31,230 bases of DNA from a virus. The stretch lies in IMG/VR virus record IMGVR_UViG_3300042305_002468, positions 1 to 31,230 of that record; one strand, 5' to 3'. Shown piece after piece: positions 10,603 to 29,251 of the stretch. Under the pieces are notes generated by a model that worked only from the letters and a program-made list of their open reading frames with translations, ran no database searches and was not told the origin of the DNA. Position 1 is the first letter of the stretch, and each line of letters starts with the position of its first letter. Made by a program: the position numbers and the translations under genes.

Positions 10603-11151
10603 ATGCACCACTGTCCTCGCTGCGAGACCAAAGCTCGCGTCATCGAAATCCGCAAGCTCGCCAACGGCGACAAGCGCCGCCGCCTGGCCTGCCAGAACAC
10701 GTTCTGCGGCCATCGCTGGACCGCGCACGAGCGCTCCAACGACCCAGTGCCCCAGCCGGTGGTCAAGGCCAAGCCCAGGCGACGCAAAGCCCCAGGTGAG
10801 CCCGACCTCACCGATGAGCAGCTGCTGATGATCTTCCAGCGGGTCGACCTCAACAACTGCCAGCTGGCCCGCATCTTGAACCGCAGCCGTGAACTGATCC
10901 GCCAGGTGCGCGCCGGCCTGGCCTACCGCGACCGGCTACCCCAGATCATCCGCGCAGCAGAGGCTCGCGTGCCTGACAAGGGCCATCGCTGTGAGCAGTG
11001 CAACCAGTGGCTCGGCTACTGCGCCATGGGTTTCCCCGACCCCCTGCTCGAAGGCACCGCATTCGCCAATGAGTGCGTGACCTTCTCGCCCCGCAGCGAA
11101 GGCGTCAGCCAGGCATCTGCTGAGACATCACCTGCTGCAGCCGCTCATTGA
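10603..11151 (+). CDS. Zinc-ribbon transcription factor-like protein
   Basis: The 182-residue protein opens with a four-Cys ribbon (HHCPRCETKARV, then RRRLACQNTFCGHRWTAHER), the pattern of Ogr/Delta-type phage activators and of NrdR-like ribbons. A basic linker (KPRRRKAPGEPD) leads to an HTH (DEQLLMIFQRV, NNCQLARILNRSRELIRQV). A second Cys cluster follows (HRCEQCNQWLGYCAMGFPDP, then ECVTF). It could be a late-gene activator. It lies at the end of the rightward block and its 3' end overlaps the opposing gene by 47 bases. Confidence 0.7.
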   Translation: MHHCPRCETKARVIEIRKLANGDKRRRLACQNTFCGHRWTAHERSNDPVPQPVVKAKPRRRKAPGEPDLTDEQLLMIFQRVDLNNCQLARILNRSRELIRQVRAGLAYRDRLPQIIRAAEARVPDKGHRCEQCNQWLGYCAMGFPDPLLEGTAFANECVTFSPRSEGVSQASAETSPAAAAH

Positions 11152-11512
11152 TGCCGCTGAGCTGCTGGGTCAGCAGGGCGTTCACTTCCGCGGGGGCGGG
11201 CGTCGACTGGCCGCGACCGATCCCCTCCTGCTGGAATGCTCCGCTCTGGACCCCCTGACGGAAGACGGGTTGCACTTGGGCGATCTGAGCGCGCATCTGG
11301 CTCAACTGCTGGGCAAGCACCGCTTCTCGCTGCGCTTCGATCATCGAGACCTGCTGGAAAGCTTCGCTGATCTCTTTTTTGGTAACCAGCTCCTCCACGG
11401 CCCAATCCTCCAAGCCGTCCAGTCGGCGGCGCAACCCGAAGCCGGTCGCACTGGTGCCGATGGCCAATCCGGCGAACCCCGTGGCAGCCGCGATCGCAAT
11501 GGTGGTGATCAT
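11105..11512 (-). CDS. Small membrane-anchored coiled-coil protein (spanin/holin-like)
   Basis: From an ATG at 11512 the 135-residue product begins with a hydrophobic segment MITTIAIAAATGFAGLAIGT that could be a signal anchor. It continues with a long Gln/Glu-rich helix (VEELVTKKEISEAFQQVSMI, EAQREAVLAQQLSQMRAQIA) typical of a coiled coil, and ends LSGINERLQQVMSQQMPG. One N-terminal membrane segment and a periplasmic coiled coil is the architecture of an inner-membrane spanin, and its place behind a lysozyme fits. This role is inferred; no homologue is recognised. A TTG 13 codons upstream is less likely as start. Confidence 0.6.
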   Translation of the reverse strand: MITTIAIAAATGFAGLAIGTSATGFGLRRRLDGLEDWAVEELVTKKEISEAFQQVSMIEAQREAVLAQQLSQMRAQIAQVQPVFRQGVQSGAFQQEGIGRGQSTPAPAEVNALLTQQLSGINERLQQVMSQQMPG

Positions 11513-11573
11513 GGGAAATCTGTGAGCACCGATCCAAGGTGCGTGTGACAAATCTACCCAATAGAAGCGCCTT

Positions 11574-11756
11574 TCAGCGCGATTGTTCAGGCTTTCGCGT
11601 CCAAAGCTGCTGGATGCCCTCGATCGCTTTCTTGAGTCCCGCCTGCCCGGCCCAGGCCGCCGCGGGCTCCAGGAACGCCTTCTGGGCGATCAGTCTCACA
11701 ACCGGCGCCAGCAGCGAGGCGACCAGCACATCGCCCATCACATGGAGGTCGCTCAA
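11574..11756 (-). CDS. Small hydrophobic protein of lysis cassette
   Basis: This 60-residue frame starts with TTG overlapping the upstream stop (TTGA), or alternatively with an ATG at 11738. It has one amphipathic/hydrophobic stretch (VLVASLLAPVVRLIA) and a basic C-terminus. Size, location between two membrane proteins and tight overlap suggest a small holin or antiholin, but the evidence is context only. Confidence 0.5.
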   Translation of the reverse strand: MSDLHVMGDVLVASLLAPVVRLIAQKAFLEPAAAWAGQAGLKKAIEGIQQLWTRKPEQSR

Positions 11757-12085
11757 GGCTCGGGATTGTCAGAGTGCAGATCGGGGTTCAGGGTCCAGTA
11801 CCCCTGCTGGTAGCCCTCCTTAATACCCTCCTCAATACCCTCCTTGCGCCCCTTGCTGGCGCCGATCACATAGCCGCCGATGCCCAGCGCGGCCGCCAGC
11901 GGGCCGCCGGAGCCCAGGCCGGAGATCGACAAGCCCCGGTCCCAGCACTCATTGAAGGTGCCGCCGCTCACCCTGCAGTCGCGGATGTAGAGCGCTCCCA
12001 CAGCCACATTGAGCCCAAGTACCAGGGCGGCGCCGACCATGCCCAGGATCGCGGAGGCTTTGGCCAGATCGGGGTGCGATGGCAT
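11753..12085 (-). CDS. Small two-membrane-segment protein, holin candidate
   Basis: The 110-residue protein has two hydrophobic segments (ILGMVGAALVLGLNVAVGAL, residues 13-32, and GPLAAALGIGGYVIGA around 61-76) separated by a loop with two Cys (DCRVSGGTFNECWD). A charged tail with a short internal repeat (GIEEGIKEGYQQGYW) follows, ending TLNPDLHSD. Two membrane segments with a charged C-terminus is a class II/III holin layout. It lies 31 bases after the lysozyme gene on the same strand. The function is inferred from topology and position. Confidence 0.6.
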   Translation of the reverse strand: MPSHPDLAKASAILGMVGAALVLGLNVAVGALYIRDCRVSGGTFNECWDRGLSISGLGSGGPLAAALGIGGYVIGASKGRKEGIEEGIKEGYQQGYWTLNPDLHSDNPEP

Positions 12086-12116: not shown

Positions 12117-13424
12117 TTAGCCAGCTGGTGCCGTCCACATATTCGTGAGGCGATCCAGCTCCTGCCAGGGATTACCACCTGACAGAGCATTGACGTGAGT
12201 CGTGACGTGCGCACCAAACGCCCGTCCGGTTACACCCTGGCTACCGAGAACGGTGCCGCGGGGGACCTTCATGCCTGGCTTGACGCTGTAGTCATTGAGA
12301 TGCCCAAGAAGGAGCTCGTAGGGCTTGCCGTCTGCCCCTGTGAACTTGCCGCTCAGCCAGTTGCCGTAGCCGCGCCCCGACTCCCCGCTGCCCTGCCCCT
12401 GGAATCCCTTACCGGTGATCTCCAGGTCCACTGGCGCTACGATCGGCGCTCCCACCCCGCCCGGCTTGACGAGGTCGTAGCCGCTCTGCTCAGCATCGGG
12501 ATCCCTGGTGCGATTGGTCGTTGCACCACCGAGGCGCCCCATTCGCAGTCCGCTCGACGCGTCTGCTGGCATGCCCGCCTGTGGCGCATTGAACTGCGGC
12601 ACAGGCACATCGAAATCAGGGATCGCCTGAGAGCCAGGCAATTGGCCTCCAGCGGCCACCAGGGGTCCAAGGTCCTCAATCGATACACCGGTAGCGGCCT
12701 TGAACAGGCCGGGCAGCAGGGCGCTGCTGGCAGCCATGCGCTGCTTGCCCACCGCCCCAGCGAAGCTGTTGTCCAGAACCGCTCCCGCCACCCCTGCGGG
12801 ACCGCTAGCTCCCGCGGGGGTGATCTTGGGGGCCATGGCGAATGGGGCGGCCATGCGAAAGCCTCCCGTCCCGCTCGCGCCGCCGAGGATCCCAGCAGCC
12901 ACGGCCTCCAGAGGCGAGCCAGCCCGGGTTGGCGCAGGGCTTGAAGCTGCTGTTGCCGAAGGCGCAAAAGGCGCCATCGGTGCGCCGTTCCCTCCCAGGC
13001 GGCTCTGGTAATGAGACAGCAGCTTGTCTGCTGCCTTGACCGGCTGACCGTAGTAGCTCGCTCCCTGCATCGTCGGCAAAGAGGCCCATTCCGGCGCCAG
13101 CTTGGCCAGGGTCTCGCGAGTCAAGGGCTTGTCAGGGTCAACCCCGCGACGGCGAATCAGCTGCAGGGCAGCTAAGTCCTGATTGGCGGGCGAGAAATCC
13201 TTGAGCCCTAACTCCTTGGCGGCCCCTTCCCAGGTAGCCGGGAGAAACTGGTATGCACCTGCCGCCGCCGAAGCGTAGCCGCCCCCTCGGTTGACCTGGT
13301 TTGGATGCCTGGACAGATCGCTGAACGTCTTGCCCGTGAACATCGTGTTGTAGCCCTGGGGTCCGCTTGTGCCCTCTGCAAGCCTGATCGTGTCCAGCAG
13401 GGCTCTGGCGTTCGGGCTGATCAC
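12117..13424 (-). CDS. Modular phage lysozyme: GH104-type plus M23-like domain
   Basis: The 435-residue protein should cleave peptidoglycan. Residues 1-150 match the lambda R/GH104 endolysin family: ALLDTIRLAEGTSGPQGYNT with catalytic E17, GYASAAAGAYQFLPATWEGA, LGLKDFSPANQDLAALQLI, and LAPEWASLPTM. A long Ala/Pro/Gly linker (about residues 150-310) follows. The C-terminal 110 residues have an M23 metallopeptidase-like order (SGYDLVKPGG, APIVAPVDLEI, GYGNWLSGKF, LLLGHLNDYSVKPGMKVPRG, AFGAHVTTHV), but the first zinc His is Gln/Ser and the HxH is altered, so peptidase activity is doubtful. It may serve wall binding or be a virion-associated lysozyme. A GTG start overlaps the NblA-like stop (GTGA) and has GGAGGAA just upstream. 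Confidence 0.8.
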   Translation of the reverse strand: MISPNARALLDTIRLAEGTSGPQGYNTMFTGKTFSDLSRHPNQVNRGGGYASAAAGAYQFLPATWEGAAKELGLKDFSPANQDLAALQLIRRRGVDPDKPLTRETLAKLAPEWASLPTMQGASYYGQPVKAADKLLSHYQSRLGGNGAPMAPFAPSATAASSPAPTRAGSPLEAVAAGILGGASGTGGFRMAAPFAMAPKITPAGASGPAGVAGAVLDNSFAGAVGKQRMAASSALLPGLFKAATGVSIEDLGPLVAAGGQLPGSQAIPDFDVPVPQFNAPQAGMPADASSGLRMGRLGGATTNRTRDPDAEQSGYDLVKPGGVGAPIVAPVDLEITGKGFQGQGSGESGRGYGNWLSGKFTGADGKPYELLLGHLNDYSVKPGMKVPRGTVLGSQGVTGRAFGAHVTTHVNALSGGNPWQELDRLTNMWTAPAG

Positions 13425-13777
13425 GATTCCTCCATCCCGAGCGCAATGGCTTCGATGTCGACATCCATTCTGGCGGCTTCCTGGCAGGCCTCAGCACGTT
13501 CGCCGACGTAGGCCGCCAGCTCCTCGTTGCTGGGCATGTGCCCGAATGTCGCGATCATCTCTTCGTCGGTCTCAGGCAGCGCAAGGTAGATGTCCATCGG
13601 CTCCTCCACCTCCATCCCCGCTTCCACCATCACCGATCGCAGGTAGTTGCCCTGCAGCAGGTAGTCCCTGCGCTCGTCGATCACCAGAGCAATCAGCTCG
13701 GCCCGGCTCAGATCCTCGATCTCTCCCCTCAACTGCCGCAACTGGAACTGCTGCTCCAGGCTGAGATCGAGCATCAT
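13421..13777 (-). CDS. nblA: NblA-like phycobilisome degradation protein with C-terminal extension
   Basis: Residues 1-52 match NblA/Ycf18 (Pfam NblA): LDLSLEQQFQLRQLRGEI, EDLSRAELIALVIDERRDYL, LQGNYLRSVM. Bacterial NblA reads LSLEQQFxLR ... SRExxxxxLxxxxRQxxxREN. NblA dimers bind phycobilisomes and hand them to the Clp protease, and phage-borne nblA is known from freshwater cyanophages. The product (118 residues) is about twice the normal 55-65: residues 53-118 form an acidic extension (MDIYLALPETDEEMIATFGH, NEELAAYVGERAEACQEAAR). GGAGGT at 13783-13788 precedes a GTG-ATG-ATG start cluster; the first ATG is used here. It overlaps the lysozyme start by 4 bases, so antenna breakdown and lysis are co-expressed. 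Confidence 0.8.
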   Translation of the reverse strand: MMLDLSLEQQFQLRQLRGEIEDLSRAELIALVIDERRDYLLQGNYLRSVMVEAGMEVEEPMDIYLALPETDEEMIATFGHMPSNEELAAYVGERAEACQEAARMDVDIEAIALGMEES

Positions 13778-14216
13778 CACAGACCTCCGTGGTGACCAGC
13801 TGCAGGGGGATGGCCGCCGGTTGCAGCCAGGCCTCTATTCTCGCCTCGCGGTGCGAGCAGAACCATGGTGTGCCGCGGTACCAGCTGCGCCAGCAAGCCG
13901 TGCTGCCCTTGTCGGTATTGCAGCGCCGGCAGGCGGGCACCAGGTTGGAGCGCAGCGTGCTGCCGCCCTTGGCCCTGGGCTTGACGTGATCCAGGGTCAG
14001 AGAGGCCGCCGGGGGCGCCTCGCCGCAGTAGGCGCAGCAGCCAGCCCAGGCCTGCTTGATGCCTTGGCGGAACCGCCGCCTGGCATCTGCCGGAGAGAGA
14101 TCGACCAGGTAAAAGACAAGCTCTTCCCATCGTTCCGCCACAGGCGCCAGCCTCAGCTCACGCCACGCTACGCAGTTTGAGCGGGCGTCTGGTTGCCGCT
14201 GTTGCGAACGCCCCAT
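13572..14216 (-). CDS. HNH endonuclease with run-on C-terminus
   Basis: From the ATG at 14216 the protein has a McrA-type HNH domain: CCAYCGEAPPAASLTLDHVK with zinc ligands C61 and C64 and D76-H77, then KGGSTLRSNLVPACRRCNTD with N91 and C96/C99. The domain ends near residue 145 (REARIEAWL). The frame then continues for about 70 residues through the start of the nblA-like gene with a composition unlike a folded protein. The authentic end may once have been the TGATG at the nblA start. It could serve as a homing-type nuclease or as a terminase-associated HNH. It is the first gene of the leftward cassette and is divergent from 14272. Confidence 0.75.
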   Translation of the reverse strand: MGRSQQRQPDARSNCVAWRELRLAPVAERWEELVFYLVDLSPADARRRFRQGIKQAWAGCCAYCGEAPPAASLTLDHVKPRAKGGSTLRSNLVPACRRCNTDKGSTACWRSWYRGTPWFCSHREARIEAWLQPAAIPLQLVTTEVCDDARSQPGAAVPVAAVEGRDRGSEPGRADCSGDRRAQGLPAAGQLPAIGDGGSGDGGGGADGHLPCAA

Positions 14217-14271
14217 GGGCTCACAAGCAGGCAGCCAGGGCTTACACTGCGGCCCTCCCGTCCTCTCCTTG

Positions 14272-14532
14272 ATGGAAGTCCTCAGAGCTGGCCGCGGCCT
14301 GGCGGTCCAGGCGCCCCCTGTCCGGCGCACCCCGATACCGCGGACCTGGTTCACCACGGCGACAGCCGCTGCCATGCTGGGCCTCTCCGAGCGCACCCTG
14401 CGGCGGCGGATCACCCGTCCGGGCTGGGTGGAAGGCAAGCACTACCGCTGGATCACCCGCCAGTCCCGCCGCACTCTGGAGATCAACGTCTCCAACGTGA
14501 TCAAGCTGATGGACGCCCGCGGCTGGGGCTAG
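14272..14532 (+). CDS. Small HTH protein (excisionase-like)
   Basis: The 86-residue protein contains a winged-helix-type module: TWFTTATAAAMLGLSERTLR, RRITRPGWVEGKHYRW, SRRTLEINVSNVIKLMDARG. This is the layout of excisionase/MerR-type small DNA-binding proteins. It lies in the lysogeny side of the genome, so control of integrase directionality or of the divergent lysis genes is plausible. An earlier ATG at 14215 is also in frame; the 14272 start is preferred because it leaves room for a promoter between this gene and the HNH gene. It ends convergently with dcd (4-base overlap). Confidence 0.65.
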   Translation: MEVLRAGRGLAVQAPPVRRTPIPRTWFTTATAAAMLGLSERTLRRRITRPGWVEGKHYRWITRQSRRTLEINVSNVIKLMDARGWG

Positions 14533-18286: not shown

Positions 18287-19474
18287 TTAGCCAGGGCTGC
18301 CGAGGTAGATCCCAATAGGATCTTCTCCCCCCAGCCAGTTCCGATAGGCCTTGTGGTGGGCCGCCACGGTGTGTCCCATGAACAGTGAGGCGTGGGCATC
18401 GGTCACCCGGTAGCGGGGTGAATGCAGTCGCCGGGCGTAGGCATGCCGGAACCCGTAGGACGTCTGCCCCTCCCCGCCGATCAGACCATGGCGGCGCAGG
18501 TGCTGGTTCACCCGGGCGCCGGCCTGGGACTTGCTGCTCAGGGATGGCAGCGGCTTGGCCCAGAGTTGGGGCAGTCGGAACTCTTCCACCCATTCCGGGT
18601 GAAACGGCGGCACCTGACGCGGCGGCGTGGTGCCATGGCGGTTGGTCTTCCCGGCCGGAATCCAAATGCAGTCCGGGCGATCCTTTGAGGGCTCAGCCAC
18701 CCAGGCCTCCCAGGGTCGCAGGCCATAGACCGCCAGCAGCACCACGATCCGCCGCCAGGGGCCACTCAGTCCGCCGCTGGTGATCTTCTTGATCTCGTCG
18801 TCCGAGAAGAACGCCTGGGGCCTGTGCTCCACCGCCATGCCGGCGTTCTGCAGGGGATCCAGCAGGGCGCTGTTCCAGGGTTGTCCGCACAGCTCACACA
18901 GCTGCCGCAGAAAGGCCACAGCGCGTCTTCTGCTGGGACTCCTGGGACTCGTCTGCTCGATGGCCTGCAGCAGTGAGCTGTCGCTCAGCGGCTGCTCCGG
19001 GTCCAGTCGGCGCAGGTGGCTGAAGTAGTGCCGCTCGATCGTGGCGTCCGACACTCCCTGGGCCCGCTTGAACCGTTGCCAGATCGCCGCCACCTCATTC
19101 ACGTTCAGCCGGTGCTTTGCGCTCTTGCCCTTGCGGCCCGACCTTTTACCCGTTCTTACCCCCTCCCCGAAACAGGCCTCGTGCCAGGCGTCCGAGTCGA
19201 ACCGGTCCTTGTGGTCGTGGCGGAAGCGCAGCAGCGCCAGCGCCCGCTCCTGGACGTCCACCGGACCGGCGTCGAAATCCAGGTACAGCGGCACCCGCCG
19301 GCCGGTGAGCTGGACGTACAGCCGCCGGCCCACCGACCGCAGCCGGAACCCCCGCCCGAAGGTTCCCGAGCAGCGGGCGGCCAGGGCTCCGACGGTCAGA
19401 TCGATGACCTCCTGGCCCTCCGCCAAGGGTAAATTTACCCTTTTTTGACCCCTAATGCCGCGAGATGCCTCCAT
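18287..19474 (-). CDS. int: Tyrosine integrase
   Basis: The enzyme recombines phage attP with the host tRNA-Thr gene. Counting from the ATG at 19474 (395 residues), the catalytic positions are Arg in AVYGLRPWEAW (R253), the box-II segment TSYGFRHAYARR (R343, H344), MGHTVAAHH, and the nucleophile in HKAYRNW (Y377). As in many phage integrases, the first His of HxxR is Tyr. A core-binding domain precedes (NVNEVAAIWQRFKRAQGVSD, IERHYFSHLRRLDP). A TTG at 19498 or a TTG at 19417 are other possible starts; the upstream region carries repeats and a palindrome that might be Int-binding sites. The att core lies directly upstream. Confidence 0.93.
   Translation of the reverse strand: MEASRGIRGQKRVNLPLAEGQEVIDLTVGALAARCSGTFGRGFRLRSVGRRLYVQLTGRRVPLYLDFDAGPVDVQERALALLRFRHDHKDRFDSDAWHEACFGEGVRTGKRSGRKGKSAKHRLNVNEVAAIWQRFKRAQGVSDATIERHYFSHLRRLDPEQPLSDSSLLQAIEQTSPRSPSRRRAVAFLRQLCELCGQPWNSALLDPLQNAGMAVEHRPQAFFSDDEIKKITSGGLSGPWRRIVVLLAVYGLRPWEAWVAEPSKDRPDCIWIPAGKTNRHGTTPPRQVPPFHPEWVEEFRLPQLWAKPLPSLSSKSQAGARVNQHLRRHGLIGGEGQTSYGFRHAYARRLHSPRYRVTDAHASLFMGHTVAAHHKAYRNWLGGEDPIGIYLGSPG
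19425..19442. promoter_or_regulatory. 18-base perfect palindrome at integrase start
   Basis: AAGGGTAAATTTACCCTT is a perfect dyad at 19425-19442, followed on the + strand by a T-run. It could be an operator for int, or with an AATT loop a terminator stopping rightward transcripts before attP. It lies within the first codons of int if the ATG at 19474 is used. Confidence 0.5.
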
Positions 19475-19497
19475 CTGCCTCCAGGTGACCGGAGGCA
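19466..19497. repeat. TGCCTCC repeats, candidate Int/Xis arm sites
   Basis: TGCCTCCA occurs at 19466-19473 and 19476-19483, exactly one helical turn apart. TGCCTCC recurs inverted at 19491-19497 (GGAGGCA). The last two form an imperfect dyad centred near 19486. Direct repeats at 10-base spacing beside an attP core are typical of integrase arm-type or excisionase sites. Confidence 0.45.
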
Positions 19498-19525
19498 AAA
19501 GGTAGTCCCTGGCTGGATTTTGAGG

Positions 19526-26779: not shown

Positions 26780-27928
26780 TCAGTACACGAACGAGTAGGC
26801 AACCGTCACGAAATCCTTGTTGAGGATCTCGAAGCCAGCCAGCAGGGACCAGATCATGATGATAAACCGACTGAAGTCGTCGTTGTTGTTCAGCAAGACC
26901 TGGGCGTTCTCACCGCCAGTGCCGATACCGACCGACTGCATGCCGAAGAACAGCATGGGGGCCGCTTGATAAGTCGCACTGCCACTGCCGCCAACATTGC
27001 TGTTGATGTCAGCAGTGAAGCTCTTCTCGGGAAGATTGGTCGACTCGAACCAGCGAACTCCCTCGAAAAGGAAGCCCGTTGGCATCGTCGGCTGACCAGC
27101 GACGAAGCCGGCTTGACCGTACGCAGGACCGTTGCCGAGGTAAAAGGTTGCGTTAGGTGCCAGGTGAGGTTGCATCGGGTCAACGATCCCCTGACCCGCG
27201 TAGCGAGCCACTTCGCGGAAGTCGTTGTCCTGGCGCAGGTGCTTCATCGCAGCAGGGCTGGCGACGCAGCGGTAGTAGCCATCGGCGAACGTGGGGATGT
27301 TCCGCTCGCGCATCTGGGTGACAACCTCGAGGAGGTCATCCTTGACGCCGAACTTGGCCGATTGACCCGCAGCATAGGCTGCGACCGTGGTTGCGTTGGT
27401 TTTGGCTTTGCCCTTGGGGAAATAGTATCCGCCCTGGGTTGAGTCAGCCTTGCCATTCGCCTCGGCTTTGAACAGCTCGTCGGCGAAAACACGATCACGC
27501 CAGCGGCGGTAATCGTCAAGCAGGGTCATAGAGCCGATGCTCTGATGGAACACCGGAAGTGAACCAGTATCGAGCAAAAGCCTCTGCGCTATGACCAGCG
27601 TCTCGCGCGCAACTTTGAACGTACTGGGCGCAGACGCGTTGAGAGGGTCTGCGGGTCCGGTATATTCCTTCAAGGTCACATGAACCTTGTCCTTGACAAT
27701 GTTCCGAGAAGAACTGGTGCCGATTGTTTGATCAGCAGTCCGCTCTCGGGAATCCTTAGTGCCAGGATTACCCCAGTAGCGATACCGATCCAGCGCCACC
27801 GTTTGCCCGGGTTGAGCGGCGAAATCGTGAACCACGACGGGGTCCACGGCCATCTCAACCACGTAGGCAGGGTGGGGCCGATACAGCTCGGCGCCCAGAA
27901 CCTTCGGAAAGTCATTTTCGATCCACAT
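26780..27928 (-). CDS. Major capsid protein (N4 gp56/HK97-like type)
   Basis: The 382-residue protein has the layout of HK97-fold major capsid proteins of the N4 gp56/cyanophage type: VALDRYRYWGNPGTKDSRE, TVTLKEYTGPADPLN-type strand region, VFHQSIGSMTLLDDYRRWRD, FADGYYRCVASPAAMKHLRQ and DNDFREVARYAGQGIV, APMLFFGMQSVGIGTGGENA. The family motif G-x-Y-x-C/A-x-x-S-P-x-x-x-x-x-L is clear. It is the first gene of the leftward virion block, divergent from the LAGLIDADG pair. A weak GGAG lies 10-13 bases before the ATG. Third-position GC appears lower than in its neighbours, which could reflect selection for high expression. Confidence 0.8.
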   Translation of the reverse strand: MWIENDFPKVLGAELYRPHPAYVVEMAVDPVVVHDFAAQPGQTVALDRYRYWGNPGTKDSRERTADQTIGTSSSRNIVKDKVHVTLKEYTGPADPLNASAPSTFKVARETLVIAQRLLLDTGSLPVFHQSIGSMTLLDDYRRWRDRVFADELFKAEANGKADSTQGGYYFPKGKAKTNATTVAAYAAGQSAKFGVKDDLLEVVTQMRERNIPTFADGYYRCVASPAAMKHLRQDNDFREVARYAGQGIVDPMQPHLAPNATFYLGNGPAYGQAGFVAGQPTMPTGFLFEGVRWFESTNLPEKSFTADINSNVGGSGSATYQAAPMLFFGMQSVGIGTGGENAQVLLNNNDDFSRFIIMIWSLLAGFEILNKDFVTVAYSFVY

Positions 27929-28013
27929 GGGATGAAACGCTCCGATAGTGCGGGTTTTGGCAGGCGGGACGCTTGCCAGGTCTTACAGTAACTGCATTTC
28001 AGGGGGCGAAATT

Positions 28014-28637
28014 TTGGACACTGATGCCACGCGTGGCCTGCTCGGGCTATTCCTGGCAGACGGGCACTTGCACCGCATCCGCACGCCAACCCGCTACCGA
28101 ATACGAGCTGTGATTGAGGGTAGCGAGGGCGAAATTGATTTCCTCGATGAGAAGGCCGCCGAGCTGCGCCGCTATATCCCCACCACCGCTACCCTGCGGC
28201 GCTACCAGACCAGCACCCGCGAGAGCGGCAATCGCACCACCGTCTGCCGGCTGCGGGTCACCAGCGATGCGCTTCAGCCGATCTACAACCTGCTTTACCC
28301 CCGCCGCCGCCGCCAGGTCACCCAGCCGGCGCTCGAGCTGCTGGGCGGCCGGGCCGCGGCCTGGCTCTGGGCCGAGAACACCAGGCCCCTGAGCAGCGGC
28401 AGCTTCCTGCTCAAGCGCGTCGGCAGCCAGGAGGATGAAGCCCTGCTGGTGGCCGGCTGGCTGCGCATGCTCACCGGCGCCCAGGGTGAGATCTGGGACC
28501 AGGATCCGCAGCAGCGCCTGCGCCAGAAGCCACGCCTGCTGTTCAACCAGCAGCAGGCGGCTCACCTGCAGACGGCGCTGCTGCCCTATGCGCCCGTCAG
28601 CCGGCGATCGCTGTTCCTGCCGGGAGGTGGCCAGTGA
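28014..28637 (+). CDS. LAGLIDADG-fold protein A (motif 1 intact, motif 2 decayed)
   Basis: The 207-residue protein matches LAGLIDADG_2-type homing endonucleases over its full length: LLGLFLADGHLHRIRTPTRY with the first catalytic motif intact (LADG), then RAVIEGSEGEIDFLDEKAAE, VTSDALQPIYNLLYPRRRRQ, then the second motif as RAAAWLWAENTRPL, where active enzymes have WFMDDG. So the second acidic centre is Glu/Asn instead of Asp/Asp. Downstream FLLKRVGSQEDEALLVAGWL follows the usual fold. The start is TTG at 28014 after AGGGGG at 28001-28006, since an upstream GTG gives a poor N-terminus. It overlaps the next gene as GTGA. Confidence 0.7.
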   Translation: MDTDATRGLLGLFLADGHLHRIRTPTRYRIRAVIEGSEGEIDFLDEKAAELRRYIPTTATLRRYQTSTRESGNRTTVCRLRVTSDALQPIYNLLYPRRRRQVTQPALELLGGRAAAWLWAENTRPLSSGSFLLKRVGSQEDEALLVAGWLRMLTGAQGEIWDQDPQQRLRQKPRLLFNQQQAAHLQTALLPYAPVSRRSLFLPGGGQ

Positions 28638-29251
28638 ACGCCCAGTTCGTCAGCCTGGCGGTCGGCTACGCCCTGGGCGGCGGGCAGCTGCGACGCAAGG
28701 GGGCCAGACAGCGCCCCTGGCTGGAGCTGCGGCGACTGGAAACCGAGTCCACCTACCTGCTGCACCAGGTGCGACTGCTGCAGCGCAGCGGCAGCGGCAG
28801 CGTCCGAGTGGATGTCGACATGCTGCCCGGCCAGGGGTACTACGACCTGCGCCGCGCCCGGCTGCACAGCCCTCTGCTGGAGCGGACCATGGAGCTACTG
28901 CAGGTGGACGATGGCCAGCGCTACAGCCTTGAAGCCCTGCGGGTGGCCGGCGTGCGCGGCATCGCCAGCCTGTGGCTGGACGTGGGCCGCTGGCAGCTCG
29001 GCAGTGGCCTGCTGCCGGTCTCCTCCCTGGAGGACGCCCTTGTCCTGCTGGAGTACCTGCTCAGTCACCACAACATCAGGGCCGTCATCAGTGAGCGACC
29101 CGGCCCGGCCCTGATGCTGGCGCCGCGGCCGATGCAGGACCTGGCCGCCCTGCTGCGCCCCCAGGTGCACCGCTCGATGCGGCATGCGCTGCATCCCGGC
29201 GCTTGCTTCGGCAAGCAGCTACTGGATGAGCCCCGGCGCCAGCTTGCCTAG
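28634..29251 (+). CDS. LAGLIDADG-fold protein B (motif 1 decayed, motif 2 retained)
   Basis: The 205-residue protein has the same fold order as its upstream neighbour: FVSLAVGYALGGGQL with the first motif's Asp lost to Gly (LGGG), then LERTMELLQVDDGQRYSLEA, the second motif as GIASLWLDVGRWQL with an acidic residue kept (WLDVG), and the characteristic end VSSLEDALVLLEYLLSHHNI, RPMQDLAALLRPQVHRSMRH. It looks like a paralogue of protein A with the opposite active-site loss. The GTG start overlaps the previous stop, so the two are co-translated. A terminator follows at 29307. A heterodimeric nuclease or a DNA-binding regulator are both possible. Confidence 0.65.
   Translation: MNAQFVSLAVGYALGGGQLRRKGARQRPWLELRRLETESTYLLHQVRLLQRSGSGSVRVDVDMLPGQGYYDLRRARLHSPLLERTMELLQVDDGQRYSLEALRVAGVRGIASLWLDVGRWQLGSGLLPVSSLEDALVLLEYLLSHHNIRAVISERPGPALMLAPRPMQDLAALLRPQVHRSMRHALHPGACFGKQLLDEPRRQLA

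Follow-up and report, generated by a model that had tools for sequence, protein, structure and literature searches.

The locus examined here raises the question of what a phage protein would do that begins as NblA, continues for about twice the length of NblA and is encoded directly ahead of a lysozyme gene. The DNA analysed, referred to as the window, is an IMG/VR virus record of 31,230 bases. The original prediction had described the gene, here named nblA-x, as NblA-like with a long C-terminal extension at the head of the lysis genes; its coordinates were right, and the strand, which had been left unstated, is the minus strand. The features on which the argument draws are the following.

13421..13777 (stop included), minus strand: nblA-x, 118 aa, NblA domain plus C-terminal extension; ATG at 13777, TGA at 13423-13421
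13784..13788, minus strand: GGAGG, ribosome-binding-site-like as read from the sequence, 6 nt before the nblA-x ATG
13622..13777, minus strand: nblA-x residues 1-52, NblA helix-loop-helix; predicted helices 7-20 and 25-52, Pfam match at residues 4-50
13424..13621, minus strand: nblA-x residues 53-118, acidic extension with two predicted helices, 71-78 and 84-104; no trusted family
13439..13465, minus strand: DVDIEAIAL motif, nblA-x residues 105-113, near the C-terminus
13572..14438, minus strand: HNH endonuclease ORF, upstream of nblA-x
12117..13424, minus strand: lysozyme/endolysin, 435 residues, GTG start; endolysin-like N-terminus, Peptidase_M23 C-terminus
11753..12085, minus strand: 110-aa ORF with one hydrophobic stretch by hydropathy
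11105..11551, minus strand: 148-aa ORF with a weak N-terminal hydrophobic stretch

We give about an even chance to the reading in which nblA-x is a phage Clp adaptor, made from NblA by the addition of a docking tail, that is expressed together with the lysis proteins and directed at the phycobilisome.

The NblA domain and the tail

The N-terminal half of the product belongs with NblA, as had been predicted for residues 1-52. Residues 4-50 match Pfam PF04485 at 34.7 bits (E 2.4e-8, cut-off 25), and separate scoring of the two halves, which had been proposed as a check, gives 37.4 bits for residues 1-55 and no Pfam family at E<=1 for residues 56-118. Started from nblA-x alone, phmmer recovers three NblA structures (E 0.004-0.008), and a profile of 35 sequences of the family, window included (A6), places 3cs5, 1ojh, 2qdo and 2q8v first among 177,635 PDB sequences (E 2.2e-6 to 0.013). 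By hhalign the N-terminal half aligns with 14 host NblA-like proteins, our choice among those fetched from cyanobacterial genomes, at 97.8% probability (E 9.5e-13), against 0.8% for the C-terminal half, and none of 30 controls with shuffled columns exceeds 2.2%; one half of the protein is therefore NblA and the other an addition. PF04485 is matched at E<=1 by 33 of the 35 family members, and ten of ten relatives scored singly lie under the Pfam NblA cut-off (15.1-21.9 bits). The NCBIfam NblA equivalog NF045916 is matched at E<=0.1 by 21 of the 35, and unlike NblA proper the window protein stays far under its cut-off (28.7 bits versus 100), which makes nblA-x a lineage-specific NblA variant.

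AlphaFold2 with the 35-sequence alignment (mean pLDDT 79, superseding an earlier run on 2 sequences with a mean of 58) predicts the four helices listed above, with pLDDT 80-94 in the block of residues 11-60 and low confidence at the extreme C-terminal end. In this model the first two helices form the NblA-type hairpin that had been foreseen. Foldseek returned 7 rows from PDB and 42 from BFVD, none of them at E<=0.001 or an NblA entry, and the 14 chains compared by VIA-align, best Z 3.2, likewise held no NblA entry; these searches are uninformative because the query model is small and helical. Like NblA/Ycf18, nblA-x has the LSLEQQF motif together with the predicted hairpin, and it differs by its length (118 versus about 60 residues), its acidic tail and the valines at two positions of helix 2.

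PMC4103541 places the ClpC binding of host NblA close to the N terminus and the phycobiliprotein binding close to the C terminus, and gives an average length of 63 aa; in PMC7966870 the protein is presented as a ClpC adaptor some 60 residues long. The N-terminal motif, ClpC-binding in host NblA, is retained across the nblA-x family. Where helix 2 ends, the residues that we take to be L51 and K53 of Anabaena NblA (reportedly so numbered in Bienert 2006) align with V49 and V51 of the window protein. Counted by eye over the 35 sequences, the Leu position holds S, T or A in 21 and L in three, being replaced in 32, and the Lys position holds K or R in 21, Q or H in eight and V, E or D in six. Leucine has mostly been lost in the family, and most relatives, but not the window's kind, have kept a basic residue. 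A host-like asparagine in helix 2, N44 of the window protein, is present in three of the 35.

The doubled length and the acidic, helical character ascribed to the extension hold: residues 53-118 comprise 18 acidic and 2 basic residues and two predicted helices. The tail has no trusted family in the Pfam, PHROGs, NCBIfam or PADLOC libraries; the weak rows amount to 31 families of at most four members each in PHROGs (best E 0.0055) and three of one member each in PADLOC (E 0.023-0.05). An antirepressor-like role, also suggested at the outset, gained nothing from these searches, in which regulators occur only as single weak library rows (Sigma70_r3, 1 of 35 members, E 0.038). Weak matches to AcrIIA4 (Pfam, 6 of 35 members, best E 0.00094; NCBIfam AcrIIA4_fam, 1 of 35, E 0.1) were treated as chance, and the two rows of known position (E 0.13 and 0.21) fall in residues 24-53, which is helix 2 and not the tail. 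Three of 400 genomes gave matches to residues 72-99 of the tail (E 0.027-0.045), which were also treated as chance; in genome G186 the ORF concerned looks by eye like a 6-phosphogluconate dehydrogenase.

The tail is under purifying selection. Its dN/dS does not exceed 0.23 in any of the 16 pairs with finite dS, and between the window and locus L266 it is 0.04 (dN 0.013, dS 0.363); the comparison covered 17 pairs, which have sequences in common and are therefore not all independent. The end of the tail is conserved as a short peptide. Eleven IMG/VR sequences, picked out with just the NblA model, have the exact motif in eight cases, EIDMDEIVL in two and ELDMEEIID in one (L219), and in a set of 12 sequences gathered without the motif (A5) the D and I columns show no variation at all and the last L column almost none; the S-EIV1 copy has no such C-terminal motif. 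The motif was the sole search pattern for the 46 IMG/VR loci considered below, and its presence in all 46, like the invariant D, I and L in A6, is therefore by construction. In one subgroup (L254-L263) the middle of the tail is different and more acidic, and the end motif is retained.

It is plausible, as had been proposed, that the tail retargets NblA or recruits another partner. In the strongest form of this idea the hairpin would bring ClpC, phycobilisomes would no longer be bound, and the tail would deliver some other host or phage protein. The loss of the helix-2 leucine from 32 of 35 sequences, the conserved peptide near the C-terminus and the purifying selection on the tail are all in line with such a protein, but the window protein retains N44 and scores above the Pfam NblA cut-off, and the Lys position is still K or R in 21 of the 35. 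We know of no other target, and we regard a complete change of target as unlikely, though worth keeping in mind.

Phage lineage and hosts

The window belongs, as far as its head gene tells, with Synechococcus phage S-EIV1. The ORF at 26780-27928, identified as the capsid gene by phrog_1357 'major head protein' (E 3e-19), encodes a protein with 64.2% over 100% to that of S-EIV1, the sole match among 50,697 phage records, and by this likeness the window phage carries an S-EIV1-type major capsid protein. Two plus-strand ORFs adjoining the capsid gene, at 27948-28637 and 28634-29251, may be LAGLIDADG-type homing endonucleases, judged by eye from the motif. In five other records (G816, G825, G826, G843 and G845; loci L224, L236, L237, L257 and L259) the capsid gene was matched in two to five pieces with inserts between them, and it looks as if it were interrupted by introns or other mobile elements.

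A capsid relative is encoded by 412 IMG/VR stretches, the best 80 of which were kept. PF04485 was searched for in 50 of 154 records, of which 39, S-EIV1 among them, had been retrieved with the capsid protein and 11 with dCTP deaminase. Twelve of the 50 reach E<=0.05 (6.1e-7 to 5.9e-4), one of them above the Pfam cut-off. They account for every capsid-bearing record of at least 44 kb in that set, 12 in number; the 27 capsid-bearing records that do not match are all shorter than 40 kb and for that reason probably fragments, and none of the 11 dCTP-deaminase-found records matches. A separate search added one more positive capsid-bearing record (G004, 48 kb). Every long S-EIV1-type record searched thus carries nblA-x, which is a genuine variant of NblA whose added tail is under selection.

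With the A5 profile a two-part protein of like length was found in 46 IMG/VR loci from many metagenome records. The product is identical to that of the window in locus L002 and 93% so in L003. A capsid match is present in 18 of the 46 records; of the 28 others, 23 are shorter than 44 kb and five span 50.8-74.6 kb. In the latter (G821, G834, G835, G840 and G851; L231, L247, L248, L254 and L268) an extended NblA occurs in a long record with no match to the S-EIV1-type capsid: either the capsid gene has diverged, or it is absent from the record, or nblA-x also occurs outside the capsid lineage. Tblastn against phages and plasmids gave chance rows only (four at E 2-8; one) or none, and a genome scan with the window protein gave 79 pattern matches and no relative.

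S-EIV1 itself (KJ410740) encodes a 'hypothetical protein', AHV82245.1, of 106 aa that resembles nblA-x in its NblA-like N-terminus and acidic end; it matches PF04485 at 17.4 bits (E 5.9e-4), below the cut-off. It differs from the window protein in sequence (20% identity), in the missing C-terminal motif and in gene order, as the lysozyme gene stands directly before AHV82245.1 in S-EIV1 and after nblA-x in the window.

S-EIV1-type phages are reportedly a widespread lineage, to judge from the title of Chenard 2015. In table 2 of PMC5332604 the S-EIV1 group accounts for 3.3% of the mapped cyanophage signal, and there nblA is entered for the PaV-LD, Ma-LMM01 and MIS-PhV1B groups, the entries of the S-EIV1 group being hli and ptoX without nblA. 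Phage nblA has been described from the freshwater phages Ma-LMM01, MaMV-DC and PaV-LD as well as from marine cyanopodoviruses, S-TIM5 and S-SCSM1 (PMC9602691, PMC4103541), and pigment loss is reported for some nblA-carrying cyanophages (PMC9602691, PMC4103541). The opening remark that phage NblA is known from freshwater cyanophages was therefore correct for freshwater but too narrow, marine nblA having already been published (PMC9602691). These NblA proteins, of Ma-LMM01, MaMV-DC, PaV-LD and the marine phages, are likewise borne by cyanophages, but of other groups; none of them came up in tblastn when the window protein, one relative and a host NblA served as queries. As far as the available parts of the nblA, cyanophage and S-EIV1 literature go, no report of the extended family was found, although the environmental sequences of Nadel 2019 may include members.

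The host of S-EIV1 is a Synechococcus, and that of the window phage is probably picocyanobacterial. The genome family to which G186 belongs would be Cyanobiaceae, or picocyanobacteria. In 400 sampled genomes of this family neither the capsid gene nor the A6 profile gave any match, and the four matches of the A1 profile (E 0.021-0.045) were taken as chance; as the set has no positive control, all three results show little. PF04485 is matched at E<=0.01 in 5 of 201 sampled genomes, one above the cut-off, and many such hosts may therefore carry no NblA that the PF04485 model can see. One member of the family, G504, has a 102-aa NblA-like ORF (L273, 5402-5710, minus strand) at 27.5 bits, above the PF04485 cut-off. 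It resembles nblA-x in being NblA-like, but has no C-terminal motif and is probably cellular, because rhomboid-like and trigger-factor-like ORFs lie on the same contig by eye. Since 67% of its length aligns with the S-EIV1 protein at 48.6% identity, nblA-x may have moved between phage and host. A divergent NblA-like ORF (LSLESNFELERIKRSIDAMD...) is nearly identical in G186, G471 and G490 (L029, L271, L272), and in G186 it adjoins an ORF that is ribonucleotide-reductase-like by eye. Some picocyanobacteria are described as having their own divergent NblA-like genes (PMC7439483).

The host data bear on an explanation in which nblA-x would pair with host NblA, or occupy ClpC, and so block antenna breakdown, allowing light harvesting to continue during infection. 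The title of one paper speaks of an essential NblA1/NblA2 heterodimer in Synechocystis, and an altered binding end might suit a dominant-negative partner. NblA does dimerise (PMC7760959, PMC7966870). The rarity of PF04485 in the G186 family nevertheless speaks against an anti-adaptor, which we consider improbable.

Lysis-type neighbours and the overlapping HNH frame

In the window the nblA-x stop and the GTG start of the lysozyme ORF overlap in the four nucleotides GTGA, as had been read originally. The lysozyme ORF matches phrog_90 endolysin in PHROGs (E 2e-37), and its Peptidase_M23 match (30.6 bits) is above the Pfam cut-off. Beyond it, the 110-aa ORF may be holin-like, and the 148-aa ORF seems by eye to be like the small ORF found downstream of nblA-x in other relatives.

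Across the 46 loci two arrangements occur. The next ORF is lysozyme- or SLT-like and 308-435 residues long in 14, with a stop-to-start gap of -4 to 9 nt, and a small ORF in 32, with a gap of 34-50 nt. Seven of the large ORFs were scanned: five pass SLT_3 or SLT (L223, L225, L232, L237 and L267), that of L229 passes Peptidase_M23 and that of L253 passes no cut-off; those of L265 and L266 match the window lysozyme, and the remaining five were classed by eye. Three of the 32 small ORFs were tested and all have an N-terminal hydrophobic stretch, and two that were scanned gave no Pfam match above cut-off; the small ORFs may be holin- or spanin-like. As the gaps and next ORFs differ, coupling to a lysozyme is limited to the window's kind and does not extend to most relatives. 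The unusual link to lysis claimed for this gene is therefore tight where it was first seen, and lysis-type genes recur beside the gene in the lineage, but the 32 loci with a small ORF do not share the coupling. A place at the head of lysis-type genes may apply to both kinds of locus.

This position would also suit a protein of the lysis cassette that has kept the NblA hairpin merely for dimerisation and acts on lysis timing or on envelope proteins. The place ahead of a lysozyme/SLT-like ORF or of small ORFs, like the three with a hydrophobic stretch, is in its favour; however, nblA-x has no hydrophobic segment and its hairpin aligns with NblA along the full length, and we judge this role to be about as improbable as that of an anti-adaptor. 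Finally, an extension produced by read-through or frameshift, with the real product ending near residue 55, is refuted for the family by the conservation of the tail, given the like length in 46 loci and the low tail dN/dS, and nothing was found in its favour.

The upstream ORF scores above cut-off for HNH (44.7 bits) and HNH_5 (46.1 bits), and an HNH ORF lies upstream of nblA-x in 43 of the 46 loci (L223-L263, L265, L266). In all 43 its frame extends 146-209 nt into nblA-x, out of frame with it; in the window the overlap is 206 nt (13572-13777). When the nblA-x of 18 representatives was resampled with synonymous codons, the overlapping frame stayed open as long in 0.1-10.2% of trials (8% for the window's copy in L265), and where HNH is missing, in three loci, the corresponding frame ends after 23-56 nt. 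Of 15 HNH pairs, 12 show less synonymous change in codons 1-50 than beyond codon 68, the other three being equal (L243/L248), opposite (L225/L227) and saturated, and the two pairs without HNH, out of 17, go one each way. These counts are not independent tests because the sequences are related. Judged from these patterns of sequence, dual coding over the overlap is likely.

Other ORFs around the gene may be recorded. A 105-aa ORF at 14215-14532 on the plus strand, antisense to the 5' part of the HNH ORF, has matches below cut-off to helix-turn-helix and DUF1233 (putative excisionase) families. An integrase ORF lies at 18287-19498 on the minus strand (phrog_1, E 6.6e-13), for which reason the window phage may be temperate; integrase matches occur upstream of nblA-x in L236 and L253 as well.

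A proposed phage adaptor

Taken as a Clp adaptor aimed at the antenna, nblA-x would be an NblA-descended protease adaptor that has been rebuilt in the S-EIV1-type cyanophage lineage. Homology suggests that its N-terminal hairpin keeps the ClpC-binding motif, and we infer that the protein forms a dimer and binds ClpC. The end of helix 2, the phycobiliprotein contact in host NblA, is partly changed, and the added acidic tail with its short conserved terminal peptide may provide a second docking site by which the target is chosen or held more strongly. SspB-type tethering adaptors combine a substrate module with a peptide at the extreme C-terminus, and nblA-x resembles them in layout, no sequence relation being claimed. 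The protein would be produced alongside the lysis proteins, presumably late in infection, and would deliver phycobilisome proteins of a probably picocyanobacterial host to Clp. Phycobilisomes appear to be the likeliest target because the window protein scores above the NblA cut-off and the host of S-EIV1 is a Synechococcus. Several observations go against this reading: the low score with the NCBI equivalog, the relatives under the Pfam cut-off, the valines at V49 and V51, the five long records with no capsid match, the lack of a peptidoglycan hydrolase next to the gene in 32 of 46 loci, and the absence of the motif in S-EIV1.

A related possibility, to which we attach rather less confidence, is that of a two-ended Clp adaptor, again made with the lysis proteins and partly overlapped by HNH, in which the hairpin is combined with a docking peptide for a target that is additional to, or other than, phycocyanin.

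If nblA-x is a core gene of its lineage, dismantling of the antenna or of the proteome would be a capacity not listed for the S-EIV1 group in table 2 of PMC5332604. The nblA-x family further provides natural variants of NblA in which a tail has been added and the target end partly changed, and in which domain swaps can separate the functions of the parts.
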